In this document: positions 4,945 to 20,355 of the stretch, piece by piece | How the letters are laid out: the number at the start of each line of letters is the position of its first letter | Numbering within the stretch: position 1 is the stretch's first letter | Made by a program: the position numbers and the translations under genes | From: Kineococcus aurantiacus | GTDB taxonomy: Bacteria > Actinomycetota > Actinomycetes > Actinomycetales > Kineococcaceae | Direction of reading: 5' to 3' | Length of the DNA: 64,000 nt | Assembly: GCF_013409345.1 (NCBI RefSeq) | Contig: NZ_JACCBB010000001.1 | Span: forward strand, 1,984,001 to 2,048,000 | Notes under the pieces: generated by a model | Told to the model about the DNA's origin: nothing | Database searches by the model: none | What the model saw: only the letters and a program-made list of their open reading frames with translations

Positions 4945-5841
4945 TCAGAACGTGACGATGCTCAGCGAGCCCTTGCCGTAGCGGGTCACCTCGACCGCGA
5001 GGTCGAGGCGGCTGCCCGTGCGGGTCGCCCAGTCGACGACGTCCGGGCGCAGGGTCTCCCCCGGCACGTACGACGCGTAGAGCTTCAGGTGCGCGGCACC
5101 CTCGACGTTGAACAGCGACGCCATGATGTTCAGCACCTCGCGCGCGTTGACGGCGAGGTTCTCGGGCAGGTCGCGGTCCTCGATGGCGGCCTCGCTGGCC
5201 CCGGGGGGCAGCAGGCCGATCGCGGCACCGGCGTGGGCGGCCAGCGCGAAGTCGAAGACCACGACGGCCTTGGACTTCAGGTGGTCGTCCACGTAGAGCC
5301 CGACGAGCGAACCGGGGGCGCCGCCCACGGGGACGGCCTTCCCGTCCCTGAGCTCGACGTCGCGGTTCAGCAGGTCCGAGAGCAGGTTGCGGATCGCGAG
5401 GTTCGACGGCAGCGGGTTGACCTCGAACTTCACCTCGCCCTGCGCGACGGACGTCTCGGTCGCGCCGCTGCCGCCGTCCCCGCCGAGGACGGGGGCCAGG
5501 GCGGCCGCGAACGCCTCGGGGGTGAAGGGCTTGGCGATGAGGAAGAGGGCGCCGGCGGCCGCCGCCTTCTCCCGCATCTCCTCCGAGCCCTCGGAGGTGA
5601 CGAACCCGAACGGCACGTCGATGCCCGAACCGCGCAGGTTCTGGAGCATCTCGTAGCCGGTGGCCTCGGGCATGTTCCAGTCGGACAGGACGATGTCGGG
5701 GTTCTCCTTGCGGACCGCGTCGAACCCCTCCTTGCCGTTCTCGGCCTGGACGACGTCGACCCAGTCGTACCCGGCCTGGCGCAGGGTGCGGATGACGATC
5801 TGCCGCATGACGCGGCTGTCGTCGACCACGAGGGCCTTCAC
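4945..5841 (-). CDS. CheY receiver fused to a CheX/CheC-like domain
   Basis: A 298-residue fusion. Residues 1-120 form a receiver domain with all phosphorylation residues: DD in VVDDSR, the phospho-acceptor Asp in LSDWNMP, Ser/Thr in FVTSEG and Lys in AKPFTP. After a Gly/Ser linker, residues 140-298 resemble the CheC/CheX/FliY phosphatase fold; the helix NLAVNAREVLNIMASLFN keeps the E-x2-N pair of the CheX active site, but the third position that is Asn in active CheX (GN) is Leu here, so activity is uncertain. It is the last gene of the cheB operon, four bases after cheX. It may be a self-dephosphorylating receiver or a phosphate sink. Confidence 0.85.
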   Translation of the reverse strand: MKALVVDDSRVMRQIVIRTLRQAGYDWVDVVQAENGKEGFDAVRKENPDIVLSDWNMPEATGYEMLQNLRGSGIDVPFGFVTSEGSEEMREKAAAAGALFLIAKPFTPEAFAAALAPVLGGDGGSGATETSVAQGEVKFEVNPLPSNLAIRNLLSDLLNRDVELRDGKAVPVGGAPGSLVGLYVDDHLKSKAVVVFDFALAAHAGAAIGLLPPGASEAAIEDRDLPENLAVNAREVLNIMASLFNVEGAAHLKLYASYVPGETLRPDVVDWATRTGSRLDLAVEVTRYGKGSLSIVTF

Positions 5842-5845
5842 GACG

Positions 5846-6346
5846 TCACCCCTGCCCGTTCTCGGAGCCGCCGGCCAGCCACACCTCGAACGTCAGCCAC
5901 TGGCCCTGCCAGTTGGCGTCCAGACGCGCCGCGAGGCGGTCGGAGGCGCCGTGCAGCGGCTTGGCGGTCGACACGACGGGCAGCCCGAGGGAACCGGCGT
6001 CGGGGACGAGGGCCTTGATGTTGCCACCGACGATGTTGGCGACCTCACCGAGGGAGTCGTAGACGTCCTCGTCCTCCAGCTCGCCGTCCTCCTGCAGGAG
6101 GGCGGCGGCCAGCGGCACGGCGAGGGGACGCTCGACGCTGACGGTGACGATGCCCGGCTTGGCGCCGGAGATCGTCACCGAGGCGGCGAGGATGTCGCCC
6201 TCGATGTCGTGCTGCTCGTAGGAGGGCAGCAGGAACTCGGTGTGCGCGAAGTACGACGCCCACATCGCCTCGACGATCTGGCCCAGGGCCTCGTCCTCGA
6301 CGTAGTCGGTGGGTTCGTCGTAGAACTCCTCGACCAGTTCGGTCAT
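5846..6346 (-). CDS. cheX: CheX/CheC-family CheY-P phosphatase
   Basis: A 166-residue stand-alone protein whose helix SLGEVANIVGGNIKAL matches the E-x2-N-x4-N active-site signature of CheX/CheC. These enzymes remove phosphate from CheY-P and end the chemotactic signal; no CheZ is seen, so this is the likely phosphatase of the pathway. The first 20 residues are acidic (MTELVEEFYDEPTDYVEDEA). Its ATG overlaps the stop codon of the upstream cheY in an ATGA, so the two are translationally coupled. Four bases separate it from the downstream receiver-CheX fusion. Confidence 0.85.
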   Translation of the reverse strand: MTELVEEFYDEPTDYVEDEALGQIVEAMWASYFAHTEFLLPSYEQHDIEGDILAASVTISGAKPGIVTVSVERPLAVPLAAALLQEDGELEDEDVYDSLGEVANIVGGNIKALVPDAGSLGLPVVSTAKPLHGASDRLAARLDANWQGQWLTFEVWLAGGSENGQG

Positions 6347-6726
6347 GCCTGGGCTCCTTCCGGCAGCAGGCCGAGCAGGGAGAGCTTCTCCTCCAGGGAC
6401 TCGACCGTGAAGGGCTTGATCAGGTACTCGTGCGCACCGGCGGCCAGCGCGCGGACGATCTGCCCGTGCTCGGCCTCGGTGGTGACCATCATCAGCGTCA
6501 GGGCGCGGTACTCGCGGTTCGCCCGGACCTGGGTGACGAACGTCAGCCCGTCCATCACGGGCATGTTCCAGTCGACCGTCGCGAGGTCGGGCAGCGGGCC
6601 CGCCTCGAGGACCTTCAGCGCCTCGGCGCCGTCGGCCGCCTCGACCGTCTCGTACCCGAGCTTCCGCAGTGCACCGGCGATGATCTTCCGCATGGCGCGG
6701 GAGTCGTCGACAACAAGAGCCCTCAT
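6343..6726 (-). CDS. cheY: Chemotaxis response regulator CheY
   Basis: A 127-residue single receiver domain with no output domain. VVDDSRAMRK, TVDWNMPVMDG (phospho-acceptor Asp), MMVTTEAEH (Thr) and LIKPFT (Lys) are all in place. Its phosphorylated form should bind the flagellar switch. The gene overlaps cheR by four bases upstream and cheX by four bases downstream, so the three are made together. The alternative, a generic stand-alone receiver, is unlikely given the neighbours. Confidence 0.93.
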   Translation of the reverse strand: MRALVVDDSRAMRKIIAGALRKLGYETVEAADGAEALKVLEAGPLPDLATVDWNMPVMDGLTFVTQVRANREYRALTLMMVTTEAEHGQIVRALAAGAHEYLIKPFTVESLEEKLSLLGLLPEGAQA

Positions 6727-7553
6727 GCCTGACCTCCGTTCTTGGGACGGTGGACCGAAACCCTTCCGATGAGTTCGCGGTCCCAGTTCTCATCGACGCC
6801 CAGCGTCGTTTCTGCACCCCCGAGGAACATGTATCCACCGGGGCGGAGGACCTTCCTGACCCGGGACAGGATGTCCCGCTTGGTCTCGAGGTCGAAGTAG
6901 ATCAGCACGTTCCGCAGGAACACCACGTCGAACTGCCCGAGGGCGGCGTACGAACTGGTGAGGTTCAGCTGCTGGAAGCGCACCATCTTCTTGAGGTTGT
7001 CGTTCACCTGCCACTGGGTCCCGACCCGCGTGAAGTGCCGGACCAGCAGGGGCGCCGGCAGGCCGCGGTTCATCTCCAGCTGCGAGTAGCGACCCGCCTT
7101 GGCCTTCTCCAGGACCTCGTTCGACAGGTCGGTCCCGATGATCTCGGCACGCCACCCCTCGGCGACGAGGCTGTCCTGCAGGCTGATGGCCAGGCTGTAG
7201 GCCTCCTGGCCGGTGGACGAGGCCGCCGACCAGATGCGCAGCGAACGGGTGGCGGCGCGCGCCTGCTTGAGGGCGGGCAGCACCGAGGTCGAGAACGCCT
7301 GGAACGGCGCCCCGTCGCGGAACCACGACGTCTCGTTCGTCGTCAGGGCCTCGACGATGGCGGTCTGCGCGCGCCGGTCCGGGCGCAGCCGGATCCCGTC
7401 GACGTAGGCGGAGACGTCGCTGGCACCGGCGGCGCGGGCCAGCGGCACGAGCCGCGACTCGACGAGGTACTCCTTGCCCTTCTCCAGGACGATCGCACTC
7501 TCCTTGCGCACGAGGGTGCAGACCCAGTCGAAGGCCGTGGGTGTGAGTGCCAT
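6723..7553 (-). CDS. cheR: Chemoreceptor methyltransferase CheR
   Basis: A 276-residue SAM-dependent methyltransferase that methylates glutamates of chemoreceptors for adaptation. The N-terminal all-alpha domain (about 1-80) is followed by TTNETSWFRD, a hallmark of CheR, then IWSAASSTGQEAYSLAI (SAM-binding motif I), IIGTDLS, FDVVFLRNVLIYFD and LRPGGYMFLGGAE. It starts one base after the cheB stop and overlaps cheY by four bases. No receptor gene is found in the window, so its substrates are encoded elsewhere. Confidence 0.95.
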   Translation of the reverse strand: MALTPTAFDWVCTLVRKESAIVLEKGKEYLVESRLVPLARAAGASDVSAYVDGIRLRPDRRAQTAIVEALTTNETSWFRDGAPFQAFSTSVLPALKQARAATRSLRIWSAASSTGQEAYSLAISLQDSLVAEGWRAEIIGTDLSNEVLEKAKAGRYSQLEMNRGLPAPLLVRHFTRVGTQWQVNDNLKKMVRFQQLNLTSSYAALGQFDVVFLRNVLIYFDLETKRDILSRVRKVLRPGGYMFLGGAETTLGVDENWDRELIGRVSVHRPKNGGQA

Positions 7554-7554
7554 G

Positions 7555-8814
7555 TCACCACCTGCCTTGGGGGGGACGGGCCGCGGGTGCGGCCGGACGG
7601 AACGCCGGCGGACGGGCCGGCGTGGAACTGGTGGGTGCGGTGGGGCGGGTGGTGCCGAGGGCCGGGCTGCGGGGCGCGGCGCTGGGGGGCAGCGGCGCGC
7701 GGCCCGCGGGGCCCAGCCGGCGCTGGATGGCGTCGGCGATGGAGCCCAGGGGCAGGACCTCGTCGGCGATGCCTTCGCGGGTGACGGCCCCGGGCATCCC
7801 CCAGACCACCGAGGTGGCCTCGTCCTGCGCCAGGACCTGGCCGCCGGCGGCCGCGACGGCCTTGCAGCCGAGCTTCCCGTCCGACCCCATGCCGGTGAGG
7901 ATCACGGCGAGCAGTTCGCCGCCGTACGCCGCGACGGCCGAGCGGAGCATGACGTCCACGGCGGGTCTGCAGAAGTTCTCGGCAGGTCCCTGGTTCAACT
8001 TGATCGCCATCTGCGGCCCGCGCCGGACGACCTCCATGTGGAAGTCGCCGGGGGCGACGTAGACGGTGCCGGGCACGACGGCGTCGCCGTCGGCGGCCTC
8101 GACGACGCGCAGGGCGCTGGACTTGTCCAGGCGCTGGGCGTACAGCCGGGTGAAGACGGGCGGCATGTGCTGGGTGACCAGGACCGGCACCCCGAGGGAG
8201 GCGGGCAGCTTGGCCAGGACCGCCGACAGCGCTTCGGGCCCGCCCGTGGAGGAGCCCACGACGAGGGCGCGCGGCGCCTTGAGGGCACCGCTGCGCGGGC
8301 GCCCGGCGGAGGACCCGGCGAAGGACCCGGCGAGGGACCCGGCGGCGGGTGCGGCGGGTCCGGGGGCGAAGGCCGGCCGCACGGGGGCGGCGAGCGCCGC
8401 GTGCCCGGGCACCAGCGCCTTGATCTTGGGGATGAGCTGCTGGCGGACCGACTCCATCGACTCGCTGACGCTGCCGACGTTGGCCGGTTTGGTCACGTAG
8501 TCGGAGGCGCCGGAGGACAGGGCCTCCAGCGTGGCGGTCGCGCCGCGCTCGGTGAGGGTGGAGAACATGATGACCGGCAGCTTCCGGTCGATCTTGCGGA
8601 TCTCCTTGATGGTCTCGAGGCCGTCCATGACGGGCATCTCGATGTCCAGCGTCACCGCGTCGGGGGCGAGCTGGGCGATCTTCTCCAGCGCCACCTTGCC
8701 GTTGGGGGCCGTCCCGACCACCTCGATGGCCGGGTCGGACGCCAGGACGTCGGTCACCAGACGCCGGACGACCACGGAGTCGTCCACGGTGAGCACCTTG
8801 ATGCGCTCGCCCAC
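7555..8814 (-). CDS. cheB: Chemoreceptor methylesterase/deamidase CheB
   Basis: A 419-residue protein: receiver domain (1-120, VDDSVVVRR, LDIEMPVMDG, FSTLTERG, VTKPAN), a linker with a short 12-bp tandem repeat encoding Ala-Gly-Ser units, and a methylesterase domain with GSSTGG (nucleophile Ser), QHMPPVF (His) and LTGMGSDG (Asp). It reverses CheR methylation when phosphorylated by CheA. A Pro/Ala-rich tail of about 50 residues after the catalytic domain is unusual for CheB. GTG at 8814 is the start: it directly precedes ERIKVLTVDD and has AGGAAGG upstream. First gene of an operon with a sigma-28-type promoter about 75 bp upstream. Confidence 0.95.
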   Translation of the reverse strand: MGERIKVLTVDDSVVVRRLVTDVLASDPAIEVVGTAPNGKVALEKIAQLAPDAVTLDIEMPVMDGLETIKEIRKIDRKLPVIMFSTLTERGATATLEALSSGASDYVTKPANVGSVSESMESVRQQLIPKIKALVPGHAALAAPVRPAFAPGPAAPAAGSLAGSFAGSSAGRPRSGALKAPRALVVGSSTGGPEALSAVLAKLPASLGVPVLVTQHMPPVFTRLYAQRLDKSSALRVVEAADGDAVVPGTVYVAPGDFHMEVVRRGPQMAIKLNQGPAENFCRPAVDVMLRSAVAAYGGELLAVILTGMGSDGKLGCKAVAAAGGQVLAQDEATSVVWGMPGAVTREGIADEVLPLGSIADAIQRRLGPAGRAPLPPSAAPRSPALGTTRPTAPTSSTPARPPAFRPAAPAARPPQGRW

Positions 8815-8888
8815 GCCGCACCGCCCTTCCTGCCGCCGGCGCGCGGTCCGGCGCCGTGGAACACCGCCCCGTGCGGGCGGCTCCCTAT

Positions 8889-8915
8889 CCATCGGCGGCG
8901 TGACCGCAACCTTGA
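8889..8915 (-). promoter_or_regulatory. FliA/WhiG-type promoter of the cheB operon
   Basis: On the minus strand TCAA (8915-8912) and GCCGATGG (8896-8889) are separated by exactly 15 bases, fitting the sigma-28 consensus TAAA-N15-GCCGATAA. Transcription would start near 8882, about 70 bases before the cheB GTG. No other structure is seen in the 233-bp gap to the divergent lipase-like gene. Confidence 0.78.
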
Positions 8916-9047
8916 ACGGCGGCGCTCGACGTCGTGAGTGTGCCTACGTAGCTACTCTGCGTCGTCGACCGGTCACACGTCGAGCGGGGCCGCGTCGGCG
9001 CTGCACCCGGCCGCGCGGAGCGGGGCGGACGGTGGTCGGCTGGGGCG

Positions 9048-9698
9048 GTGGACCTGCGCGCGCGCCTGGCCGACTACGCCTGGGTCGTGCGCGCCCAGCT
9101 GCGCCCCGGACGGGTCGACTGGTCCGGCGGCCCGGGCTGCCCCGTGCTGCTGGTGCCGGGCATCTGGGAGACCTGGCACGTCCTGCGCGACCTCGGGGAC
9201 GCGCTGCACCGCGCCGGGCACCCCGTCCACGTGCTGCCGGGGCTGGGGACGGGCTCGGGGGACCTGCGGACGTCCGCGGCGCTGCTGCGCGACCGCCTCG
9301 TCGAGCTCGACCTGCACCACGTGGTCGTCGTGGCCCACTCCCGGGGCGGGCTCGTCGCCAAGCTCGCCCTGCCCGCGGTCGCCGACCGCATCGACGGCGT
9401 CGTCGCGCTCGCGACGCCCTTCGCCGGGTCCCGGTACGCGACGTGGTTCCCCGCCCGGTCCGTCCGGCGCCTGTCCCCGCGCGACCCGCAGATCCGCGCC
9501 CTGGCCGCCGACGCCGGCCAGCACGGGCGCATCGTCGCCCTCCGGCCCCGCGTCGACCCGCACGTCCCCCCGACGGGACCGCTCGCCGGGGCCGTCGAGG
9601 TCGAGCTCGACCTCGAGGGGCACTTCCGCCTGCTGGGCGACCCCGCCGTCCACGAGGCGGTCGTGCGGGCGGTCGAGGGGTTCGGCGAGCGCCCCTGA
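9048..9698 (+). CDS. Alpha/beta-hydrolase, lipase-like
   Basis: A 216-residue cytoplasmic alpha/beta-hydrolase. VLLVPGIWETWHVLRDLGDAL carries the oxyanion-hole region, VVVAHSRGGLVAKLAL contains the nucleophile in A-H-S-R-G (a G-x-S-x-G variant with Ala in place of the first Gly), and a late His occurs in LEGHFRLLGDP. This arrangement resembles PGAP1-like or triacylglycerol-lipase esterases such as EstA/LipA; LATPFAGS also matches that group. No signal peptide is visible. It starts with GTG and is divergent from cheB, unrelated in apparent function, and is closed by a hairpin. Confidence 0.75.
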   Translation: MDLRARLADYAWVVRAQLRPGRVDWSGGPGCPVLLVPGIWETWHVLRDLGDALHRAGHPVHVLPGLGTGSGDLRTSAALLRDRLVELDLHHVVVVAHSRGGLVAKLALPAVADRIDGVVALATPFAGSRYATWFPARSVRRLSPRDPQIRALAADAGQHGRIVALRPRVDPHVPPTGPLAGAVEVELDLEGHFRLLGDPAVHEAVVRAVEGFGERP

Positions 9699-9701
9699 GG
9701 G

Positions 9702-9730
9702 CCCGGACCCCCGCGCGGCGGGGGCCCGGG
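9702..9730. terminator. Terminator hairpin between lipase-like gene and ycnI-like gene
   Basis: A 13-bp stem with one mismatch (9702-9714 with 9718-9730, loop GCG) lies directly after the stop at 9698, between converging genes. Confidence 0.75.
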
Positions 9731-9737
9731 CCGGTCG

Positions 9738-10469
9738 TCAGGACCGCCGGCGGCGCAGCAGGACGACCACGAGGGCGGCCAGGCCCAGGGCGAGCCCGCC
9801 CCCGGCGAGGCCGCGGGCCAGCGGGTCCGCGGCCTGCCCGGGGCCCGCGGCGCTCTGTGCGGCGACCGGTGCGGACGCGACCGTCGCGGCGTGCTCGTCG
9901 TCACCGGCCCGCGCCGTCGTGGTGAACTCCGGCGCCGGGTGCTCGGGCTCCTCGGCGCCGGGGGCCGCGACGTCGGCCCAGTCCGAGACCTCGCCGTCGG
10001 CGTAGGTCTGGACCGTCGGCAGCACGACGCGGGTCCCCGCCTCCGGCAGCGGGCCGACCTGCGCCGCGAACTCGGCGAACTGCCCGACGCCGAGGCCGGG
10101 GGTCCCCGGGTCCGCGGTCCAGGTGATCGTCAGCGGCGCCTTCGTGACGGTCACGCCGTCGACGTCCACGGGCGCGGGCAGGGCCCCGCGGGCGACCGTC
10201 GCCGTCCAGCCCGCGACGGGCTCGGTCGCGACGTACGTCAGCGGGTGGTCGGTCGGCAGCTGCACGACGACCGACGTCGTCGCGGCCGTGTCGGACTCGT
10301 TGGGCACGCGGAACGTCACGACGCTGTAGCCGTCGGCGGCCGTGGTGTCCGGGACGGCGTGGACGTGCGCGGACGCCGGGGCGGCGGCCGCCACGACGAC
10401 GGCGACGGCGGCGGCGGCGCCGGTCGCGCCGACGACGAGGGCGCGCGAGGGCAGGGTGGGGTGCTTCAC
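9738..10469 (-). CDS. YcnI-like DUF1775 exported protein, copper-associated
   Basis: A 243-residue secreted membrane-anchored protein: a signal peptide (to about residue 35, ending ASAHVHAVP), a YcnI (DUF1775) domain with HVHAVPDTTAADGYSVVTFRVPNES, WTATV and FAEFAAQVG, then a disordered acidic segment and a C-terminal transmembrane helix with RRRRS tail. YcnI domains bind Cu(II) through the N-terminal His exposed after signal cleavage and a Trp; both elements are visible here. It starts at GTG with GGAGGA before it, and lies 20 bp downstream of a multi-helix membrane protein in the same direction. A role in copper delivery or detoxification at the cell surface is inferred from the family. Confidence 0.85.
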   Translation of the reverse strand: MKHPTLPSRALVVGATGAAAAVAVVVAAAAPASAHVHAVPDTTAADGYSVVTFRVPNESDTAATTSVVVQLPTDHPLTYVATEPVAGWTATVARGALPAPVDVDGVTVTKAPLTITWTADPGTPGLGVGQFAEFAAQVGPLPEAGTRVVLPTVQTYADGEVSDWADVAAPGAEEPEHPAPEFTTTARAGDDEHAATVASAPVAAQSAAGPGQAADPLARGLAGGGLALGLAALVVVLLRRRRS

Positions 10470-10489
10470 GGTGGGTCCTCCGGGTGGTG

Positions 10490-11113
10490 TCAGAACGTGG
10501 TGGCGAGGGCGGGAACCCCCGGCGGACCACGTCGGCGCACCCGGCGCGCCACGACCGACCGGGGCCGCGAGGAGCGCAGCACCGGCACCGGGGCCACGCG
10601 CGCGGCCACGAAGCGCACGAGCGCCAGCAGCACCCGCACGACGGGGCGCAACCACGCCCACGTCGACCACAGCAGGTCCTCGCCGTGGCGCAGGGCGAGG
10701 ACGGCCAGCACCGTCGCCGCGACGTGCGCGCACGTCATCGCGGGTGGGGCGGAGGTGCCCCCGGCCGCGACGGGCCCACCCAGGACCAGCGCGCCGTGGT
10801 GCCCGGCGCCGACGAGCGTCGGCACCGGCCCCGAGCACGCGTCGAAGACCGCGTGCAGCGCGACCTGCCCGCCGCCCAGGAGCGCCGACAGCACCGGCAG
10901 CCCGAAGCGGCGGCCGGCCAGCAGCAGGCACACCGCCACCAGCACGACCGCGACGGCCCCGAGCAGGAACGGGCCCGGCAACCGGCCCCCGGCCGCGACG
11001 TGCGCCCCGGCCGCGAGGCCGAGCACCGTCACCGCCACCGCACCGGCGCGCCACCGGCGCAGCGCCCCGGCCGACGGGCCGGCGGCACCGGTCGTGGGGG
11101 ACGGGCTGAGCAC
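10490..11113 (-). CDS. Multi-helix membrane protein, partner of YcnI-like protein
   Basis: A 207-residue integral membrane protein with about five hydrophobic segments (for example [67 protein letters not shown]) and an Arg-rich cytoplasmic tail. His and Cys residues occur near helices (HAVFDACSG, MTCAHVAA), which might bind metal. I do not recognise a characterised family. The start is taken as GTG at 11113 because upstream in-frame sequence is coding shadow of the next gene. Its 20-bp spacing to the ycnI-like gene suggests a two-gene unit concerned with copper; this is inference. Confidence 0.65.
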   Translation of the reverse strand: MLSPSPTTGAAGPSAGALRRWRAGAVAVTVLGLAAGAHVAAGGRLPGPFLLGAVAVVLVAVCLLLAGRRFGLPVLSALLGGGQVALHAVFDACSGPVPTLVGAGHHGALVLGGPVAAGGTSAPPAMTCAHVAATVLAVLALRHGEDLLWSTWAWLRPVVRVLLALVRFVAARVAPVPVLRSSRPRSVVARRVRRRGPPGVPALATTF

Positions 11114-11175
11114 CGGCCCACCGTACCGGCCGGGCCGGACGGCCCGGGGGCGGCTCAGGGGCGGGTCAGGGCGGC

Positions 11176-12105
11176 TCAGGCCGCGCCGAAGGCGGCCTCC
11201 CACGGCCGCAGCAGGACGGCGCGGGCGTCGGAGCTGAGCAGGTCGGCCACGACCTCGGCGTGCACGACACCGCTCACGACGTTCCACAGGCCCGCCGCGC
11301 CGTCGGCCGCGTCCAGGCCGCCCGCGCGGAAGGCCCGCACGGCCAGCAGCTGCGCGACGGCCGCGGTGCGGACCCGGTCGGACAGGTGCACGGCCCAGGA
11401 GGCGTCGTGGACGGCGCCGGCCCACTCCCCCGCCGACGGCCGGCCCGTCTCGGCGACGGTCCGCAGGCACGCCCGGTCGGTGCCGTCGAGGCGGCGCAGC
11501 CGGTCCAGGACGCGGCCGACGCCGGCCTGCTCCGGGCCCAGGCCCTCGGGGTGCTCCGGCAGCGGCGCCAGGTCCCGGGCCGCCTGCAGGTAGGGGTGGG
11601 CCAGCACCCGGCGGACGTGGTCGGGCAGCCGGTTCCCCAGGTAGGCCGAGACGGCCGCGTCGGCCAGCACGTCGGCGGCCCGGCCGGAGTCCTCGGTGCG
11701 CAGCCGGGGGCCACCGGCCAGCGGGGCCGACCAGGTCCAGTCGAAGACGTCGTGGTGGACCAGCCGCACCAGCGCGTCGGCGTCGGCGATGGTGCTGGTC
11801 TGCAGAACGCGCACCACCCCGTCCTCCACGCGCGCGCCCGCGACCTCGTCGGTGAAGTCGCCGTGGGCCAGGCCGTTGGCGACCTGGTGCAGCACGTCGC
11901 CGATCTGCGGGAGGTTCCCGGCGGCGCGCCGGACCGTCTCCCACGCCCCGGCGCGCCCCTCGGGGTCGTACCGGGCGGCCAGGACGTCGATCTCGCGCGG
12001 GCCGCAGGCCAGCGCGCGCAGCAGCACCTCGGCCGTGGAGTCGCCGTGCGGCAGGCGGACCAGGTCGAACCCCAGGACGGGGGAGCTCACGAGGGAGTAG
12101 TGCAC
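11176..12105 (-). CDS. Uncharacterised 309-residue protein
   Basis: A soluble, Ala/Leu/Arg/Asp-rich, probably all-helical protein with no signal peptide or membrane segment. I see no catalytic signature. The first 60 residues (VHYSLVSSPVLGFDLVRLPHGDSTAEVLLRAL) are followed by repeated helical stretches such as LRRLDGTDRACLRTVAETG and WEAAFGAA at the end. The GTG start at 12105 has GGAGGCGG just before it. It precedes the copper-associated pair by 62 bp and follows the che repeat region; neither neighbour suggests a role. The 199 bp upstream, up to the repeat array at 12305, hold no feature I can name. Confidence 0.6.
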   Translation of the reverse strand: MHYSLVSSPVLGFDLVRLPHGDSTAEVLLRALACGPREIDVLAARYDPEGRAGAWETVRRAAGNLPQIGDVLHQVANGLAHGDFTDEVAGARVEDGVVRVLQTSTIADADALVRLVHHDVFDWTWSAPLAGGPRLRTEDSGRAADVLADAAVSAYLGNRLPDHVRRVLAHPYLQAARDLAPLPEHPEGLGPEQAGVGRVLDRLRRLDGTDRACLRTVAETGRPSAGEWAGAVHDASWAVHLSDRVRTAAVAQLLAVRAFRAGGLDAADGAAGLWNVVSGVVHAEVVADLLSSDARAVLLRPWEAAFGAA

Positions 12106-12304
12106 GGTGCCGCCTCCAGGCCGGGTCCGCCCCGCCCGGTCGAGCGGAGTGGACCCACCCTGACACTGCGTGACTCCCAGGACCACCAGACGTCCACCGT
12201 CCGGGCGCACCGCGAGCCCGCGGCACGCCCGTGCGGCGCACCCGGCGCCACGGCGCTGGGCCGTCCGGGTGACGCCGGGCGACGCCCCCCTCCCCCACCC
12301 CCCG

Positions 12305-12392
12305 GTGATCAAGCACTCCGGTGATCAAGCACTCCGGTGATCGAGCACTGGAGCCGGCGCCCAGCGCCGGAGGGACAGAAGTGCTTGATCAC
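12305..12392. repeat. Palindromic intergenic repeat, unit GTGATCAAGCACT (copy B)
   Basis: Direct units at 12305-12317, 12321-12333 and 12337-12349 (the last GTGATCGAGCACT) are spaced 16 bp apart, and one inverted unit lies at 12380-12392. The region is downstream of cheW, after its own hairpin terminator, and upstream of the gene starting at 12105. Confidence 0.87.
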
Positions 12393-12421
12393 GGTGGCGA
12401 ATGCAGGGACCTGGACGCGAG

Positions 12422-12451
12422 CAGGGGCGGGACCCGGAGGTCCCGCCCCTG
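12422..12451 (-). terminator. Terminator of the cheA-cheW operon
   Basis: A perfect 13-bp GC-rich stem (12422-12434 with 12439-12451, loop CGGA) lies 17 bp beyond the cheW stop. No T-tract follows, which is usual in high-GC actinobacteria. Confidence 0.85.
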
Positions 12452-12467
12452 TTCGCCGCCGCCCGTG

Positions 12468-12908
12468 TCAGGCCGCGTGCTCCACACCCTCGATCTCGAG
12501 CGCCTTGTCGACGTCGAGGACGAGCAGCAGCGCGTCGTCGAGCTTGTAGGCGCCGCGGATGAGCTCGCGGATCGGCCCCGACAGCGTGTCCGGCGGCGGC
12601 TCGAAGGTCGCGTCGGTGACCTCGATGACGCCCCCGATGGAGTCGACGAGCAGGCTCCAGACCTCCTCGGCGGCGCGGACGACGACGTTCATCGCGACCT
12701 TGCCCTCCTCGCGGTCGGGCATGTTCAGCCGGCGGCGCAGGTCCAGGGCCGTGACGACCTGACCGCGCAGGTTGATCAGGCCGGCGACGGCGCGCGGGGC
12801 CAGCGGCGCGGGCGTGCGGGGCTGCTCGGTGAGCACCTCCTGCACGCGCCGCACCTCGACACCGAACAGGTGCCCGGCGAGGTGGAACGTGGCGTACTGC
12901 GTGGACAC
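12468..12908 (-). CDS. cheW: Chemotaxis coupling protein CheW
   Basis: A 146-residue CheW domain that links chemoreceptors to CheA. Diagnostic stretches are TFHLAGHLFGVEVRRVQEVL, VAGLINLRGQVVTALDLRRRL and LVDSIGGVIEV near the middle. Length is typical of the family. It starts with GTG one base after the cheA stop, so the two are coupled. CheA itself carries two further CheW-like domains, giving three in this operon. Confidence 0.93.
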   Translation of the reverse strand: MSTQYATFHLAGHLFGVEVRRVQEVLTEQPRTPAPLAPRAVAGLINLRGQVVTALDLRRRLNMPDREEGKVAMNVVVRAAEEVWSLLVDSIGGVIEVTDATFEPPPDTLSGPIRELIRGAYKLDDALLLVLDVDKALEIEGVEHAA

Positions 12909-12909
12909 G

Positions 12910-15339
12910 TCAGACCCCCAGTCGCTTGGAAGCTTCGGCGAGCTCGTTCTGAGCCTGCTCGGTGAAGAAGTGCGGGTCGGCCGCCAGGATGGCGGACCGG
13001 ACGTCGAGCAGCTCGGTCACGCGGTCGCGGATGACCGCCGAACCGACCAGGCCGGCGTCGTCGATGTCGCTGTGGGCGTCCTGCCCGGCGACGATGTCGA
13101 CGATCTCGTCGACGACGATCGCGACCGACCGGCCGCGCGCGGAGTACACGACGCCCGGCAGGGACTCGACCTCCTGGCCGCCGTAGCCCGACCGCGAGCC
13201 GCCGCCGAGGTGGTGCGAGAGGCGGACCAGCGGCAGGATCTCGCCGCGGTAGCGGACGACCTCGCGGCGCCCGACGCGCTCGATGGAGTCCGTGCGGAAC
13301 TCCTCCAGGCGCGTGACGACGTCCAGCGGGATCGCGACCCGGCGGTTGTCGCCGAGGCCGACGACCAGCAGGCGCTGCCCGTCGCCCGTCGCGGCCTGCT
13401 GCGTGGCGGCCTGGTCGTTGACGTGCTCGATGCCGTCCGAGCGCATGGTGCGGCGGGCCAGCGACTGCACGTCGAGGATGAGGGAGACCCGCCCGTCGCC
13501 GAGGATGGTGGCCCCGGCGTAGGCGCCGATGGCCTTCAGGGCGCCCGAGAGGGGCTTGACCACGATCTCCTCGGTGTCCAGGACGCGGTCGACCAGCAGG
13601 CCGAACCGTCGCCCGTCGCACTCCAGGACGGCGATGACGCGGCTGGAGGGCATCTCCGTGCCGGCCGGGCGCTTGAGCTCCAGCGCCTCCTCCAGGCGGA
13701 TCAGCGGCAGCAGGGCCCCGCGCAGGCGGTAGACCTTGGCGCCGCCGACGTCCTCGATGGCCTTGCTCATGCGCTCGGTGTCGAGGCTGACCAGCTCCAG
13801 CAGGTTGACCTGCGGCATGGCGTACCGCTGGCCGGCGCACTCGACCGTCAGGGCCGGGACGATCGCCAGCGTCAGCGGGATCCGCAGGCGCCACACGGTG
13901 CCCTGGCCCGTGACGGACTCGACGTCGACGGAGCCGCCGATGCGCTCGATGTTCGTCTTCACGACGTCCATGCCGACGCCGCGGCCGGAGACGTTGGTGA
14001 CCTTCGCGGCGGTGGAGAAGCCGGGCAGGAAGAGGAACTGCAGGATGTCGTTGGGGGTCAGGGAGTCCAGCTTGGCCTCGGAGACCAAGCCCTTCTCGAC
14101 GGCCTTGGCCCCGATGACGGCCGGGTCGATGCCCTTGCCGTCGTCCTTGATCTCGACGACGACCTGGCCGCCCTCGTGCGCGGCGCGCAGCTTCAGGGTG
14201 CCGACCTCGTTCTTGCCGGCCGCGCGGCGGACCTCGGGGGACTCGATCCCGTGGTCGACGGCGTTGCGGACGATGTGGGTCAGCGGGTCCTTGACGGCCT
14301 CGAGCAGGGTGCGGTCGAGCTCGGTCTCGCCGCCCTCCATCTCGAGCTTGATCTTGCGGCCCAGCATGTTCCCGAGGTCGCGGACGACGCGGGGCAGCTT
14401 CGACCACAGGTGGTCGATGGCCTGCATGCGGGTGCGCATGACCGTCTCCTGCATCTCGCTGGCGACGAGGTTCAGGCGGTGGCAGGCGCGGGTCAGGTCC
14501 TCGTCGCGCAGGGCACCGGCGCGCTGGAGGATCTGGTTGCGGGCCAGGACCAGCTCACCGGCCTGGCGGACCAGGGACTCCAGGAGCTCGACGTCGACGC
14601 GGATGGTGGCGTCGGCGGCGGAGGCCTTCTCCCCACCGGCGGCGGGAGCCGCGGGAGCCGCGGGGGCCGGGGCGGGCGCAGCAGCCGGGGCGGGAGCAGC
14701 AGCGGGAGCAGGGGCCGGAGCAGCAGCGGGCGCGGGGGCCGGAGCAGCAGCGGGCGCGGGGGCCGGAGCGGGAGCGGGAGCCGGGACCTCGGCGACGGGG
14801 GCGGGCTCGGGCTCGACGACCGGCTCGGGCTCGGGCGCGGCCTCGACGACCGGCTCGGGCTCGGCGACCGGCGCGGGGGCCGGCTCGGGCTCGGCCGCGG
14901 CGGGGGCGGCCACCTCGACACCGGCACCGTCGGCCGGCGGCAGGTCGGGGGTCTCGCCGTCGAGCACGGCGCGGATCGCGGCCACGACCTGCGCGACCTC
15001 GACGCCGTTCTCCTGGTGCGTCTCCTCGATCGCGGCCAGCAGCGCTCGGATCGTGTCGACCATGCGCAGCAGGACGTCGGTCGTCGTGGGCGTCATGACG
15101 AGCTGACCGTCGCGCAGGCGGGCCAGCAGGTTCTCACCGACGTGGGCGACGGACTCCAGCTTGGAGAAGGCCAGGAACCCGGAGGTGCCCTTGATGGTGT
15201 GGATGGTGCGGAAGACGCTCGCGAGCAGCTCGCGCGAGCCGGGCTGCTGCTCCAGCGCGACGAGGTCGGAGTCCAGCTGGTCCAGGTTCTCGTAGCTCTC
15301 GACGAGGAACTCTTGGACGATCTCGTCCATGTCGTCCAC
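12910..15339 (-). CDS. cheA: Chemotaxis histidine kinase CheA with two CheW-like domains
   Basis: An 809-residue kinase. The HPt domain (1-105) has phospho-acceptor His47 in TIHTIKGTSGF. There is no recognisable P2 CheY-binding domain; instead about 100 residues of Pro/Ala/Glu-rich repeats (roughly 130-235) form a flexible linker. Dimerisation and ATPase domains follow (about 245-490), with HIVRNAVDHGIE (N box), IKDDGKGIDP (G1) and GRGVGMDVV (G2). Two CheW-like domains make up the C-terminus (about 495-625 and 645-790). It phosphorylates CheY and CheB in response to receptors. ATG at 15339 is the first gene of an operon with a sigma-28-type promoter about 70 bp upstream; cheW follows. Confidence 0.93.
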   Translation of the reverse strand: MDDMDEIVQEFLVESYENLDQLDSDLVALEQQPGSRELLASVFRTIHTIKGTSGFLAFSKLESVAHVGENLLARLRDGQLVMTPTTTDVLLRMVDTIRALLAAIEETHQENGVEVAQVVAAIRAVLDGETPDLPPADGAGVEVAAPAAAEPEPAPAPVAEPEPVVEAAPEPEPVVEPEPAPVAEVPAPAPAPAPAPAAAPAPAPAAAPAPAPAAAPAPAAAPAPAPAAPAAPAAGGEKASAADATIRVDVELLESLVRQAGELVLARNQILQRAGALRDEDLTRACHRLNLVASEMQETVMRTRMQAIDHLWSKLPRVVRDLGNMLGRKIKLEMEGGETELDRTLLEAVKDPLTHIVRNAVDHGIESPEVRRAAGKNEVGTLKLRAAHEGGQVVVEIKDDGKGIDPAVIGAKAVEKGLVSEAKLDSLTPNDILQFLFLPGFSTAAKVTNVSGRGVGMDVVKTNIERIGGSVDVESVTGQGTVWRLRIPLTLAIVPALTVECAGQRYAMPQVNLLELVSLDTERMSKAIEDVGGAKVYRLRGALLPLIRLEEALELKRPAGTEMPSSRVIAVLECDGRRFGLLVDRVLDTEEIVVKPLSGALKAIGAYAGATILGDGRVSLILDVQSLARRTMRSDGIEHVNDQAATQQAATGDGQRLLVVGLGDNRRVAIPLDVVTRLEEFRTDSIERVGRREVVRYRGEILPLVRLSHHLGGGSRSGYGGQEVESLPGVVYSARGRSVAIVVDEIVDIVAGQDAHSDIDDAGLVGSAVIRDRVTELLDVRSAILAADPHFFTEQAQNELAEASKRLGV

Positions 15340-15406
15340 GTGGCGCTCCCACTTCTCGCGACGGTCCGGCCCCGACCGGGGCCGCTTGGTCTCTTGCTCT
15401 CGTTGC

Positions 15407-15433
15407 TCATCGGCAGCCGCGTCCCGAAGCTGA
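15407..15433 (-). promoter_or_regulatory. FliA/WhiG-type promoter of cheA-cheW
   Basis: On the minus strand TCAG (15433-15430) and GCCGATGA (15414-15407) are 15 bases apart, the same layout as the promoter upstream of cheB. The predicted start lies near 15400, leaving a leader of about 60 bases. It sits just inside the terminator of the upstream conservon operon. Confidence 0.76.
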
Positions 15434-15439
15434 AACGCG

Positions 15440-15484
15440 CGGGAGGCCGGCCCCCGACGCTCGACGTCGGGGACCGGCCTCCCG
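15440..15484 (-). terminator. Terminator of the conservon operon
   Basis: A 20-bp stem with one mismatch (15440-15459 with 15465-15484, loop CTCGA) starts 18 bp beyond the cvnD stop and directly upstream of the cheA promoter, separating the two operons. Confidence 0.85.
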
Positions 15485-15502
15485 TGGGGTGCGGTGCGGG
15501 GC

Positions 15503-16126
15503 TCAGGCGCCCGCGTTGAGCCGCGCGAGGGCGGTCTGGACCAGCGTGATGAGACTGTGCTTCGTCGCGGCCTTGGAGCGCGCGTCGGTGTAGACCAGCG
15601 GGACGTGGTCGGGGACCGCGAGCGCCTCGCGGACCGAGTCCAGCTCGTGCTGGGCCACGCCGTCGAAGCAGTTGACGGCCACGACGAACGGGATGCCGCG
15701 GGACTCGAAGTAGTCCACGGCGGGGAAGCACTGGTCGAGGCGGTCGGTGTCGACCAGGACGACGGCGCCGATGGCGCCCTTGACCAGGTCGTCCCACATG
15801 AACAGGAAGCGGTCCTGGCCGGGGGTGCCGAACAGGTACAGCCACAGGTTCCCCGGCAGCGCGATGCGGCCGAAGTCCATGGCGACCGTCGTGGAGGTCT
15901 TGCGCGCCGAGTTCAGGCCCGCGTCGTCGACGCCGACCGAGTGCTCGGTCATGGCGGCCTCGGTGCGCAGCGGCTCGATGTCGGAGATCGAGCCGATGAA
16001 GGTCGTCTTGCCGACGGCGAACCCGCCGGCGACGACGATCTTGACGACGGTGGGCGGTGCCTGAGTGTCGGTTCCCGCGGGCGTTCCGGCTCCGGCGGGG
16101 CTCACGTCAGAGCGAGGAAATGCCAT
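15503..16126 (-). CDS. cvnD: Conservon small GTPase CvnD
   Basis: A 207-residue Ras/MglA-like GTPase of the conservon type. The P-loop is GGFAVGKTT, switch region SVGVDD, G3 is in LFGTPGQDRF and G4 reads NCFD instead of NKxD, a variant usual in this family. CvnD proteins cycle on GTP with help of the partner Roadblock protein CvnB. I chose the ATG at 16126, with GGAGAG eight bases upstream; a GTG nine bases earlier is also possible. The gene overlaps cvnC by 20 bases, as is common in conservons, and is the last gene of the operon. Confidence 0.9.
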   Translation of the reverse strand: MAFPRSDVSPAGAGTPAGTDTQAPPTVVKIVVAGGFAVGKTTFIGSISDIEPLRTEAAMTEHSVGVDDAGLNSARKTSTTVAMDFGRIALPGNLWLYLFGTPGQDRFLFMWDDLVKGAIGAVVLVDTDRLDQCFPAVDYFESRGIPFVVAVNCFDGVAQHELDSVREALAVPDHVPLVYTDARSKAATKHSLITLVQTALARLNAGA

Positions 16127-16499
16127 TGAGAACACTCTCCAGGACGCTGATGGTGGTCGCGGGTTGGGGGGCGGAGGTCATCGTGAGCCCGTGGACGCGG
16201 ACCTTGCCCGACTGGGACAGGTCGCTCACCACGACGCGCACGACGCCGACCGGCAGGTGGACGTGGGCGGACAGTTCGGCGATCGACAGGTAGGACTTCC
16301 TGGTGAGCTCGAGGATCCTGCGCCGTTCCGGCGTCATCCCGACCTCGGGGTCGGCCGTGGCCTCCACCAGCGCCTCGACGGGCAGGTCGGCGTTGGCGGG
16401 GCGGGTCCGTCCACCGGTCACGGTGTACGGGCGGACGGTGAACTCCTCGGTGCCCTCGTCGTCGTCGGACCAGAGGTCCGCACTACCAGGTGCTGTCAC
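16107..16499 (-). CDS. cvnC: Conservon DUF742 protein CvnC
   Basis: A 130-residue DUF742 protein. The core FTVRPYTVTGGRTRP, then a predicted winged-helix stretch (RRRILELTRKSYLSIAELSAHVHLPVGVVRVVVSDL) and GKVRVHG are characteristic. DUF742 proteins sit between the Roadblock and GTPase genes of actinobacterial conservons; their biochemical role is unknown, though the winged-helix part may mediate contact with partners or DNA. It starts at GTG seven bases after cvnB and its end overlaps cvnD. Confidence 0.9.
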   Translation of the reverse strand: MTAPGSADLWSDDDEGTEEFTVRPYTVTGGRTRPANADLPVEALVEATADPEVGMTPERRRILELTRKSYLSIAELSAHVHLPVGVVRVVVSDLSQSGKVRVHGLTMTSAPQPATTISVLESVLNGISSL

Positions 16500-16506
16500 C
16501 GGGGGG

Positions 16507-16953
16507 TCACCACCGGGCTGCGACCGGGGCGGAGGTGGGCAGGGCCGCCCTCATCTCCGACACCAGCTGCGGGGTCAGGACGGTCTCGGCGCGCTGGACC
16601 AGCATCGCCATCTCGTAGCCGATGAGGCCGACGTCGCAGCCGGCCTCGGCGGCCACGGCCAGGACCGAGCCGTCGGAGATGTTGACGAGGAAGAAGAACG
16701 CGTCGTCCATCTCGATGATGGCCTGGCGCACCTCGCCGGACTGCAGCTGGTTGGCGGCCCCGCGGGCGAGGCTGGAGACGCCGGAGACGATGGCGGACAG
16801 CTGGTCCCCGGCCTCGCGGTGGAGCTTGTCGGACATCGCCATCAGCAGGCCGTCGGCGGAGACGACGACGGTGTGGGTGACGCCGGGGACGCTCTTGACG
16901 AAGTTGTCGAGGAGCCAGCTGAAGTCGGCGGCCTCGGAGCTAAGCGCGGTCAC
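16507..16953 (-). CDS. cvnB: Conservon Roadblock/LC7 protein CvnB
   Basis: A 148-residue Roadblock/LC7-fold protein (DFSWLLDNFVKSVPGVTHTVVVSADGLLMAMSD, then ANQLQSGEVRQAIIEMDDAFFFLVNISDGSVLAV). Such proteins act like MglB, dimerising and regulating a Ras-like GTPase, here CvnD. It starts with GTG. An 87-bp gap with a short 8-bp hairpin (17015-17032) separates it from the sensor kinase upstream, and cvnC follows after seven bases. Confidence 0.92.
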   Translation of the reverse strand: MTALSSEAADFSWLLDNFVKSVPGVTHTVVVSADGLLMAMSDKLHREAGDQLSAIVSGVSSLARGAANQLQSGEVRQAIIEMDDAFFFLVNISDGSVLAVAAEAGCDVGLIGYEMAMLVQRAETVLTPQLVSEMRAALPTSAPVAARW

Positions 16954-17040
16954 AGTGGGTTTCCTCTTCTCGGGGCGTTCTGCTGGTGAGTGGTGGTGGT
17001 GCGGTGGGGATCTGCCCGGAGGGTCCTCCGGGGGTTCTGG

Positions 17041-20000
17041 TCAGGCCTGGTCATCGGTCTCGCCCTCGCGGGCGGCCGGGACGTCGGCCGAGCGGCCGCG
17101 GGACACGCCGGCCTGGAAGCCGGACAGCATCGAGCGCACGTCCGCGGGGGCGCGTCGCTGCCGGTTGGCGGCGGCGCGGGCGGGGGCGGGCTTGGCCGCG
17201 GCCGCCGTGGCGCCCGCCTGGCGGCGGACCAGCGGCGCGGAACCGGCACCCCGGGTGGGGGTGAAGTTCTGGCCCTCGGTGAGGGCCGTGAGCGCTTCGG
17301 CCGCGAGGGCGTTGCGCTGGCGCAGGGCCTCACCGACGGTGGCCCGGGCCGCGGGCGCCGGGGTGGCGGCAGCGGCGGGGGTCTCGGGGGCGAGGGCGAT
17401 CGGCCCGGTGGGGACCACCGGTTCCGGCGCGGGGGCCGGGGCCGGCGCCGGGGCCACCGGGGCGGCCGCGACGGGCTCGGCGACGGGGACGACGGGCTCG
17501 GCGACGGGTTCGGCGACGGGGGCCGCGACGGGCTCGGCGACGGGGGCGGCGGGCACCTCGGCCACGAGGGCCGGGGCGACCGGGGCGGCCGGGGCGGCCG
17601 GGGCCTCGTCCCGGGCGGCGCGGTCGGCGTCGAGGGCGTCGAGGGCGGACCCCTTCAGCTCCTGCTGCTCGCCCTGGCGCTTGCGGGAGGTCCAGAAGGC
17701 CTCGGCCGCGGTCTTGGGCGGGGTGGCGGAGTCGCGGACCTGACGGGGCTTCTTGCCGGCCTTGGGCAGGATGTCCTGCGCCGCGGCCAGGGCCGCCGGG
17801 GCCTGCGCCTTCGGCTCGCGCTTGGGCATGGCGGCCGCGGCGGCGCCGGGGGCGGCGACGGGCTTCCAGTCCTGCGCGGGCTCGGCGGCCGGAGCCGCCG
17901 GGGCGGGAGCCGCCGGGGCCGCGGGAGCGTCGGCCTTGGCCTGCGCCTGCGCGCTGCGCTTGCGGGTCGGCAGCTGCCGGCCCTCGACCTTGGCCTTGGG
18001 GGCGGTGACGCCCACCTCGGAGCTGGCCGCGGCCTCGGCGGCCGACTTCGACAGCGTCTCGGACAGGGCGTCGCCCAGGCCGCTGGCGGCCAGCGGGTTG
18101 CTCACGACGGTGCTCGCACCGTTCGCGGGGGCCGCCGGGGTGCGGGTCGGCAGGGCGCCGGGCAGGGCCGGCGGGACCGCGTCGGGCCGGGCCGACGGCG
18201 CGGCCTCGGGCAGGGCCGACGGCGCGACGTCCTCAGCCCCCGGGAGGGCCAGGCCGGAGTCGAGCGCGGCGAGCTCGGGCTCGCCGCCCTTGACGCTGCC
18301 GGGCGTGAACAGCGCGACCGGCAGGACCAGCGTCACCGTGGTGCCCCGCCCCTCGGCGGTGGTGAACTCGACCTCGACGTCCAGGCGCCCGGCGAGGCGG
18401 CCCACGACGTAGAACCCGAGGCGCTGGGCGCCGACGAACTCGGAGGCGCGGCCACCGGAGATGCGCTGGTGGGCGGTCTCGACCTCCTCCTCGGTCATGC
18501 CGAGGCCGCGGTCCACGATGGTGATCTCGACACCGCGGTCGGTCTCGGCGGTGCCGACGACGACGCGGGTGCCGGGGTCGGAGAAGTTCGTCGCGTTCTC
18601 GAGCAGCTCGGCGATCATGTGCGAGGCCGACAGGGCCAGGTGGCCCACGACGGGCGGGTCCACCTGCAGGGCCAGGTCGACGCGGTCGTAGTGCTCGATC
18701 TCCCCGGCCGCGGTGCGGATGACGTCCGACAGCGGCAGCGGGCGGCGCAGGCGGCGGCCGGTGTTGATGCCGGCCAGGACGAGCAGGGACTCGGCGTTGC
18801 GCCGCATCCGGGTCGCGAGGTGGTCGAGGGTGAACAGGTCCTCGAGGGTGTCGGGGTTCTCCTCGGTCCGCTCCAGCTGGTCCAGGAAGGACAGCTGGCG
18901 GGCCAGCAGCGTCTGGTCGCGGCGGGCGACGTTGACGAACATCTCGGCGATGGAGGCGCGCAGGGCGGCCTGCTCACCGGCGATGCGGAAGGTGGTCTCG
19001 TTGAGGTCGTTGATGACCTTGGTGACCTCGCCGATCTCGTCGGTGCTGGTCACCTCGAGCGGGGTGTACTCCACGCCCGGGCCCTCGCCGGGGGTCTGCA
19101 TGCGCTCGACCATGCGGGGCAGCTCGTCGCGGACCTCGGTCGCGGCGGTGGCCAGGTCGCGCAGGCGGGAGCCGATGCTGCGGGCGACGCGGGAACCGAA
19201 CCACGCGGCGGCGGCCAGCAGCAGCGCGGTGAGGGTCAGCAGGACGACCGTGCCGGTCGTGGAGCGGGCGGCCTCGGCGCTGGCCTCCTCGGCGGCGTCG
19301 GCGGCGCGCTCGGCGATGGCCTCCTGGTAGGCGGCGATGACCTGGCCGGAGGTCTCCTCCCAGGCCTGCGACGTCAGGGAGGTGCTGCTGGCGGCGAAGA
19401 GGTTGCGGTCCTGGTTGAGGAACGCGAGCGCGGAGTTGGTGGCGCCGTCGTTCAGCGCCGCGTCGAGCTCGGCGACGTCGTCGCTGTTGAGGCGGTAGCG
19501 GGCCTGCTGCTCGAAGTAGGTGCCGCGCTCGATGGCGGTGTCGCGCAGGACCTCGGCGGCCGGCGAGGGCTGGCCCTCGGTGATCAGCAGACCGGCGGCC
19601 TGCTCGACGGCCAGCGAGTCGACGCGCTTGAGCAGGTACCCGAAGGCGCCGATCTCCTGCGCCATCTCGCGGTCGTCGGCCTCCTCGGCGACGGCGACCG
19701 TGAGGTCGGTCGCGGCGGAGCTGATCTCGCTGTAGACGCTGAGCGCGGCGGTGGGCGTGGTGGTGCCCCCGTCGACGGCGCGCCGCGCCTGCGGCAGCGT
19801 CTGGCCCAGGGTGAGGGTGAGGGCCTGGCTGACGTTGCCGGCGCTGCCGCTGGTGACGTCGACGCCGCTGGCGACGAGCGCGTCGCGGACCGCGACGATC
19901 GCGGCGTCGGTCGCGGCGCGGTCCTGCGCCAGCTTCGCCTTCCCGGCCTCGCTCGGCGCGGCCAGGTACCGGACGCTGTCCTTGCGCTCGGCCTGCAGGG

Positions 20001-20175
20001 CCGTGAAGAACCCGTTGACGGTGTCGGTCGACGACGCGTAGGCGGCCAGGTGGCGGCGTTCCAGGGTGGCGGCCGTGTTCTGGGCGGCCGTGGCGACGAC
20101 AGCGACCAGGAGCAGCACGAGGGGGACGACCAGGAGGACCGCGAGCTTGGCTCGGATGCTCAGGTTCCGCAGCAT
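17041..20175 (-). CDS. cvnA: Conservon sensor kinase CvnA with NIT-type sensor
   Basis: A 1044-residue membrane protein. A first helix (about 8-30) is followed by an extracellular all-helical NIT-like region with DSVRYLAAPSEAGKAKLAQDR, a second helix near 300-325, a HAMP segment, the SFLDQLERTEENPDTLEDLFTLDHLATRMRR kinase-like linker and an HATPase domain (ELLENATNFSDP, IVDRGLGMTEEE, GLGFYVV-like GFYVVGRLA). The last 420 residues are Pro/Ala-rich and disordered. NIT domains are linked to nitrate or nitrite in some proteins; the ligand here is unknown. ATG at 20175 was chosen because it precedes the first membrane helix; a long upstream in-frame extension is non-coding or opposite-strand shadow. 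Confidence 0.88.
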   Translation of the reverse strand: MLRNLSIRAKLAVLLVVPLVLLLVAVVATAAQNTAATLERRHLAAYASSTDTVNGFFTALQAERKDSVRYLAAPSEAGKAKLAQDRAATDAAIVAVRDALVASGVDVTSGSAGNVSQALTLTLGQTLPQARRAVDGGTTTPTAALSVYSEISSAATDLTVAVAEEADDREMAQEIGAFGYLLKRVDSLAVEQAAGLLITEGQPSPAAEVLRDTAIERGTYFEQQARYRLNSDDVAELDAALNDGATNSALAFLNQDRNLFAASSTSLTSQAWEETSGQVIAAYQEAIAERAADAAEEASAEAARSTTGTVVLLTLTALLLAAAAWFGSRVARSIGSRLRDLATAATEVRDELPRMVERMQTPGEGPGVEYTPLEVTSTDEIGEVTKVINDLNETTFRIAGEQAALRASIAEMFVNVARRDQTLLARQLSFLDQLERTEENPDTLEDLFTLDHLATRMRRNAESLLVLAGINTGRRLRRPLPLSDVIRTAAGEIEHYDRVDLALQVDPPVVGHLALSASHMIAELLENATNFSDPGTRVVVGTAETDRGVEITIVDRGLGMTEEEVETAHQRISGGRASEFVGAQRLGFYVVGRLAGRLDVEVEFTTAEGRGTTVTLVLPVALFTPGSVKGGEPELAALDSGLALPGAEDVAPSALPEAAPSARPDAVPPALPGALPTRTPAAPANGASTVVSNPLAASGLGDALSETLSKSAAEAAASSEVGVTAPKAKVEGRQLPTRKRSAQAQAKADAPAAPAAPAPAAPAAEPAQDWKPVAAPGAAAAAMPKREPKAQAPAALAAAQDILPKAGKKPRQVRDSATPPKTAAEAFWTSRKRQGEQQELKGSALDALDADRAARDEAPAAPAAPVAPALVAEVPAAPVAEPVAAPVAEPVAEPVVPVAEPVAAAPVAPAPAPAPAPEPVVPTGPIALAPETPAAAATPAPAARATVGEALRQRNALAAEALTALTEGQNFTPTRGAGSAPLVRRQAGATAAAAKPAPARAAANRQRRAPADVRSMLSGFQAGVSRGRSADVPAAREGETDDQA

Positions 20176-20297
20176 GTCAACCTTCCGTACGCGTGGTGGG
20201 CGGGCGAAACTGCCCACCAGTGGTCGAGCAGACTCAGGGTTGATCGGTCCCCGGGACCACGGGGTGTACCCCGCGGTCCCGAGAACCCTCGTTCGGC

Positions 20298-20324
20298 CCA
20301 TCGGCAGATCGGCGCGCCGCTTGA
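20298..20324 (-). promoter_or_regulatory. FliA/WhiG-type promoter of the conservon operon
   Basis: On the minus strand TCAA (20324-20321) and GCCGATGG (20305-20298) are 15 bases apart, the same as at cheB. The leader to the cvnA ATG would be about 115 bases. The site ends 31 bp before the divergent MobA-like gene. Confidence 0.76.
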
Positions 20325-20355
20325 CCCACGGGGCCCGACGTGCCATCCCTGCGGG

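Follow-up and report, generated by a model that had tools for sequence, protein, structure and literature searches.

Three elements of the pattern TCAR-N15-GCCGATGR in the genome of Kineococcus aurantiacus are very probably promoters of the FliA/WhiG (sigma-28) family, and would place the chemotaxis operons headed by cheB and cheA, together with a conservon (cvnABCD), in the flagellar regulon. An exact pattern scan of the window, that is, the whole 64-kb stretch of DNA that was analysed, returned three matches without mismatch, all on the minus strand, and none besides (Table 1). An earlier note on this DNA had placed one motif before the first gene of each of three operons, which was confirmed: all three are exact matches, intergenic and followed by cheB, cheA and cvnA as first genes. 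The case is built on four features that can be read directly from the sequence: the motif itself, where it lies in the genome, how well it is conserved and its register with start codons.

Table 1. Predicted promoters and the genes behind them (window coordinates; gaps and gene starts from the coding model).
Feature	Position	Strand	Elements or domains	Intergenic gap	Predicted transcription start	-10 end to called start
cheB promoter	8889..8915	-	-35 TCAA 8912-8915, N15, -10 GCCGATGG 8889-8896; exact match	8814-9048	about 8880-8882 (-)	74 nt (GTG 8814)
cheA promoter	15407..15433	-	-35 TCAG 15430-15433, N15, -10 GCCGATGA 15407-15414; exact match	15339-15503	about 15398-15400 (-)	67 nt (GTG 15339)
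cvnA promoter	20298..20324	-	-35 TCAA 20321-20324, N15, -10 GCCGATGG 20298-20305; exact match	20175-20365	about 20289-20291 (-)	122 nt (ATG 20175)
cheB (receiver + CheB methylesterase), first operon gene	7555..8814	-	Pfam PF00072, PF01339			
cheR	6723..7553	-	Pfam PF01739			
cheY-like response regulator	6343..6693	-	Pfam PF00072			
CheX-like phosphatase gene	5846..6346	-	Pfam PF13690			
Second response regulator (receiver + C-terminal domain), last in cheB operon	4945..5841	-	Pfam PF00072; synteny			
cheA	12910..15339	-	Pfam Hpt, H-kinase_dim, HATPase_c, CheW			
cheW	12468..12908	-	Pfam PF01584			
cvnA, sensor kinase-like, NIT domain + HATPase_c	17041..20175	-	Pfam PF08376, PF02518			
cvnB, roadblock/LC7 (MglB-like)	16507..16953	-	Pfam PF03259			
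cvnC, DUF742	16107..16499	-	Pfam PF05331			
cvnD, small GTPase	15503..16126	-	Pfam PF03029			

Gene starts were computed with a Markov coding model trained on the K. aurantiacus genome, and the gaps that hold the three elements are intergenic under this model. Plausible ribosome-binding regions precede the called starts of cheB, cheA and cvnA, and the leaders predicted for the che and cvn genes of the window measure about 60-116 nt. Two longer readings were rejected by the coding model as over-extensions: the ATG at 8890-8892, within the cheB -10 element, is a false start of the longest open reading frame, and the cvnA frame from 21399 runs through the promoter. If the other spacers are used to set the background rate, about 1.4e-4 to 2e-4 exact matches are expected in each of the three gaps, with a product of about 4e-12. 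Scored with a matrix from which they had been left out, the three window elements reach 20.7-22.0 bits; 269 kb of the genome holds 12 matrix matches of at least 19 bits, 11 of them intergenic, including all three window elements. The consensus of the 24 other sites is TCARGTc, followed by the spacer and GCCGATGG/A.

The consensus quoted for FliA/WhiG promoters consists of TAAA at -35 and GCCGATAA at -10 (PMC8325347). All three window sites carry the GCCGATRR -10 of this class exactly and share a spacer of 15 bases, in line with the about 15 bases of the class, whereas TCAA and TCAG differ from TAAA at the second base (A to C) and TCAG, at the cheA promoter, also at the fourth. The earlier note had read the A-rich -35 as shifted to TCAA; no shift is needed, as TCAAG-T aligns with TAAAG-T through one A-to-C change. 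Since the FliA/WhiG class is defined by the reading sigma factor, the non-TAAA -35 marks a lineage variant. The Kineococcus sites have in common with FliA/SigD promoters (TAAA-N15-GCCGATAA) a -10 of GCCGAT followed by purines, a spacer of about 15 bases, the T-A-A/G of the -35 followed by G-T, and a position before flagellin, MCP and che genes. They are set apart by the C at the second -35 base, by GG or GA as the last -10 bases, by a spacer of 15 or 16, and by operons of the basal-body type, which appear to use the motif too. A search for canonical TAAR-N15/16 sites in 541 kb of DNA, a biased sample, found none. The flagellar genes of Actinoplanes missouriensis share the promoter CTCA(N15-17)GCCGAA, reportedly described by Jang et al. 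in 2016. This motif resembles that of Kineococcus in its TCA at -35, its GCCGA at -10, its variable spacer of 15-17 and its use as one promoter type for flagellar genes, so that TCA at -35 would not be new among motile actinobacteria. In contrast to it, the Kineococcus -10 is mostly GCCGATGG/A, and the Kineococcus set also takes in a conservon beside cheA and c-di-GMP enzymes.

In the mechanism proposed here, region 4 of the sigma factor would contact TCAR(GT) at -35 and region 2 would contact GCCGATGR at -10, across a spacer of 15-16 bases, with transcription beginning about 7-9 bases past the -10 element. The operons cheB-cheR-cheY-cheX-RR, cheA-cheW and cvnABCD would share a regulon with the genes for flagella, chemoreceptors and type IV pili and with several for c-di-GMP enzymes; the motile cell (zoospore) might in this way produce the whole kit together.

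The placement of the motif was examined across the genome (5.03 Mb, two contigs), with sites selected by exact pattern. Allowing any spacer from 7 to 24, there are 91 matches genome-wide: N15 gives 26, N16 gives 11, and the other spacers have a mean of 3.4. Because coding periodicity raises the counts for spacers divisible by three (5-12 matches each, mean 8.4 without N15), N15 must be measured against these, and it still stands out from their mean. N16 is a cleaner signal than N15, the other spacers in its frame giving 0-2 matches. A strictly fixed N15 spacing is ruled out by the enrichment of N16; the identical spacing claimed in the earlier note holds for the three window sites and gives way to 15 or 16 across the regulon. 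Intergenic DNA, which makes up 10.3% of the total, holds 26 of the 37 exact N15/N16 sites (p about 6e-18), with all 11 of the N16 sites and 15 of the 26 N15 sites; the remaining 11 N15 sites sit within genes, as the coding background predicts. The motif is thus far from being equally frequent in coding regions, the outcome that had been named as speaking against real promoters.

Genome-wide, the intergenic exact sites are enriched for motility functions, and the search before flagellar genes that the earlier note had proposed found the motif upstream of flagellar, MCP and che genes in two species. Of the three filament flagellins, two have a site; sites also precede the operon that includes flgN and flgK, flbD, several MCPs, GGDEF/EAL c-di-GMP enzyme genes and a type II/IV secretion (T2SSE, pilus-type) ATPase; the operon at 4371087, the start of a flgB-type run of basal-body genes, has a variant site, GCCGAAGG. 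No strong site was found upstream of the third flagellin and several MCPs. The second species (G007) has 44 exact sites, 32 of them intergenic, with che, cvn, FlgN, FliS, FlbD, glycosyltransferase, MCP, pilin, pilus ATPase and GGDEF/EAL genes as targets. Ahead of flgN/flgK, the first gene after an N16 site (L061:2741-3088, C1:4332741-4333088) encodes a protein of 115 aa that belongs to no Pfam family and could be an anti-sigma candidate, Kineococcus having no reported FlgM. In the window, a GGDEF gene (519-2000, minus strand) and an EAL gene (3739-4869, plus strand) near che have no site of the sigma-28 type. One exact motif (L185:2581-2607, C1:3216581) lies ahead of a 16S rRNA gene, at a distance of about 320 nt, and may be due to chance.

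To find the loci of relatives, a DNA pattern from cvnB was used; it had no match in two of seven relatives, further Kineococcus species, possibly through divergence rather than absence. The gene order cvnB-cvnC-cvnD-cheA-cheW is that of the window in six other Kineococcus species and in K. xinjiangensis, whose CheA is 77% identical to that of K. aurantiacus and whose sites at cheA and cvnA are weaker. Counting K. aurantiacus, the promoter is in place in seven of seven Kineococcus species at cheA, in six of six at cvnA (one relative with N16) and in five of five at cheB. The cheA footprint in the seven species is 100% conserved in the -35 and the -10 and 61% in the spacer. At cvnA the footprint is less informative, because the whole 5' leader (window 20176-20297, minus strand) is conserved throughout its length in six Kineococcus species. 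Inverted repeats stand in this leader, immediately ahead of its ribosome-binding region; across the six species, support for a structured RNA is weak and the covariation term unfavourable. Beyond Kineococcus, cheA is preceded at 34-54 nt by a TCAR/GCCGAT site in Nocardioides, Modestobacter and Mobilicoccus, and cheB has one at about 50 nt in Blastococcus, Modestobacter and Klenkia.

A further line of evidence, noticed post hoc, is the register with start codons: of 57 intergenic sites pooled from both species, 21 have an in-frame ATG or GTG 6, 7 or 8 nt past the -10 (p about 1e-13), against a background of about 0.76 per position elsewhere. Since this register falls at the expected transcription start, it lends independent support to promoter function. 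Together with the genome-wide placement and the conservation in the genus, it bears out the earlier suggestion of a real sigma-28 regulon. A start codon at this distance of 6-8 nt also predicts a leaderless mRNA, and many targets look leaderless from their sequence. In K. aurantiacus, six of the nine genes in this register encode GGDEF and/or EAL proteins (L176, L178, L180, L181, L187 and L071), and predicted leaderless GGDEF/EAL genes are also present in the second species (L214, L237 and L238). A weaker TCAAGTC-N17-GCCGAGAA site (L061:3308-3336, C1:4333308) ends 7 nt before the called fliA start, which would suggest leaderless autoregulation of fliA.

It is conceivable that the matches arise from chance or from the coding bias of a GC-rich genome, in whose coding DNA GCCGATGR is common; the N15 sites inside genes and the raised multiple-of-three spacers fit such an artefact. 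The reading is nevertheless extremely improbable given the intergenic share of the N15 and, above all, the N16 sites, their retention in place across the genus and the start-codon register, and a chance origin of the elements was ruled out by the spacing controls, the genome placement and the genus comparison. An operator, that is, a bipartite site of a motility transcription factor rather than a promoter, can be imagined in a genus for which no motility master regulator is known (PMC2587704). However, the two halves of the element fit the -35 and -10 known from flagellar promoters, as does the distance between them, and start codons sit where transcription starting 7-9 nt past the -10 would put them, a register that an operator does not predict; we regard this explanation as very unlikely.

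With the elements taken as promoters, the choice of sigma factor lies between two FliA/WhiG-family genes that pass the curated TIGR02479 cut-off. One adjoins three flagellins and its product has FliA as best solved match; the other adjoins rpsB/tsf and scores 385 bits to Streptomyces WhiG. The two proteins are 36% identical and differ in their region 4.2 helices, SESRISQMRAEA in FliA against TESRICQMHTKA in the WhiG orthologue. We infer that the sites are transcribed by a sigma-28 type factor, and that this is probably FliA, favoured by the position of its gene next to flagellins that carry the motif. Were the WhiG orthologue the main reader, an RsiG-type c-di-GMP-dependent anti-sigma factor could gate chemotaxis. 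The orthologue is encoded in the genome, flagellar promoter specificity is common to WhiG, and pilus and c-di-GMP genes belong to the motif-bearing set. Moreover, genes for type IV pili belong to the WhiG regulon of Rubrobacter radiotolerans, which has the same sigma family and the same -10 (PMC8325347); there, a TAAA -35 was used and pili are controlled, to which Kineococcus would add flagella and chemotaxis. Yet fliA adjoins motif-bearing flagellins, the second -35 base is C here as against the TAAA quoted for WhiG, and the region 4.2 helix of FliA is unlike that of WhiG, which makes a main role of the WhiG orthologue rather unlikely.

The four syntenic cvn genes identify the operon as a conservon, with the usual order cvnA-B-C-D and a NIT-domain kinase-like CvnA, a roadblock CvnB, a DUF742 CvnC and a small GTPase CvnD. 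The definition of the class also includes a membrane-associated signalling complex formed by the proteins. Conservons have been reported to act in development, specialised metabolism and gyrase-related resistance, and no report tying a conservon to chemotaxis or to a flagellar promoter was found in that literature. Unlike these, the conservon of Kineococcus adjoins cheA and bears a flagellar-type promoter; among the loci recovered by CheA similarity, cvn genes adjoin cheA in Kineococcus only. A conservon next to cheA with a predicted flagellar-type promoter across the genus is a new point, and we infer that it acts in the motile stage. More tentatively, and by analogy, it might be a dedicated part of the flagellar and chemotaxis machinery, expressed from a sigma-28 promoter and steering motor output or polarity in the manner of MglA/MglB of Myxococcus, alongside leaderless mRNAs for c-di-GMP enzymes from the same sigma factor; this is a possibility to be taken seriously, though somewhat doubtful.

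In the genome paper of K. radiotolerans, the regulation of the motility island was not fully discerned, and neither a master regulator nor FlgM was found (PMC2587704). A survey of 2023 described a marked rise in c-di-GMP enzymes among actinobacteria that are flagellated and form zoospores, for which a link to flagellar control was only suggested (PMC10746217). With a promoter code that can be read from sequence and that connects flagella, chemotaxis and pili with c-di-GMP enzymes and a conservon, such questions of regulation become directly testable, and the conservon gains a likely cellular setting.

Between cheW and cheB, the window also encodes a conserved protein (11176-12102, minus strand) without a Pfam match. 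Its predicted fold is all-helical (pLDDT 87.5) and matches no PDB structure at an E-value of 0.001 or lower, and its relatives occur close to cheW and cheB, or between the two, in Actinoplanes, Blastococcus, Geodermatophilus, Modestobacter and Kineococcus.
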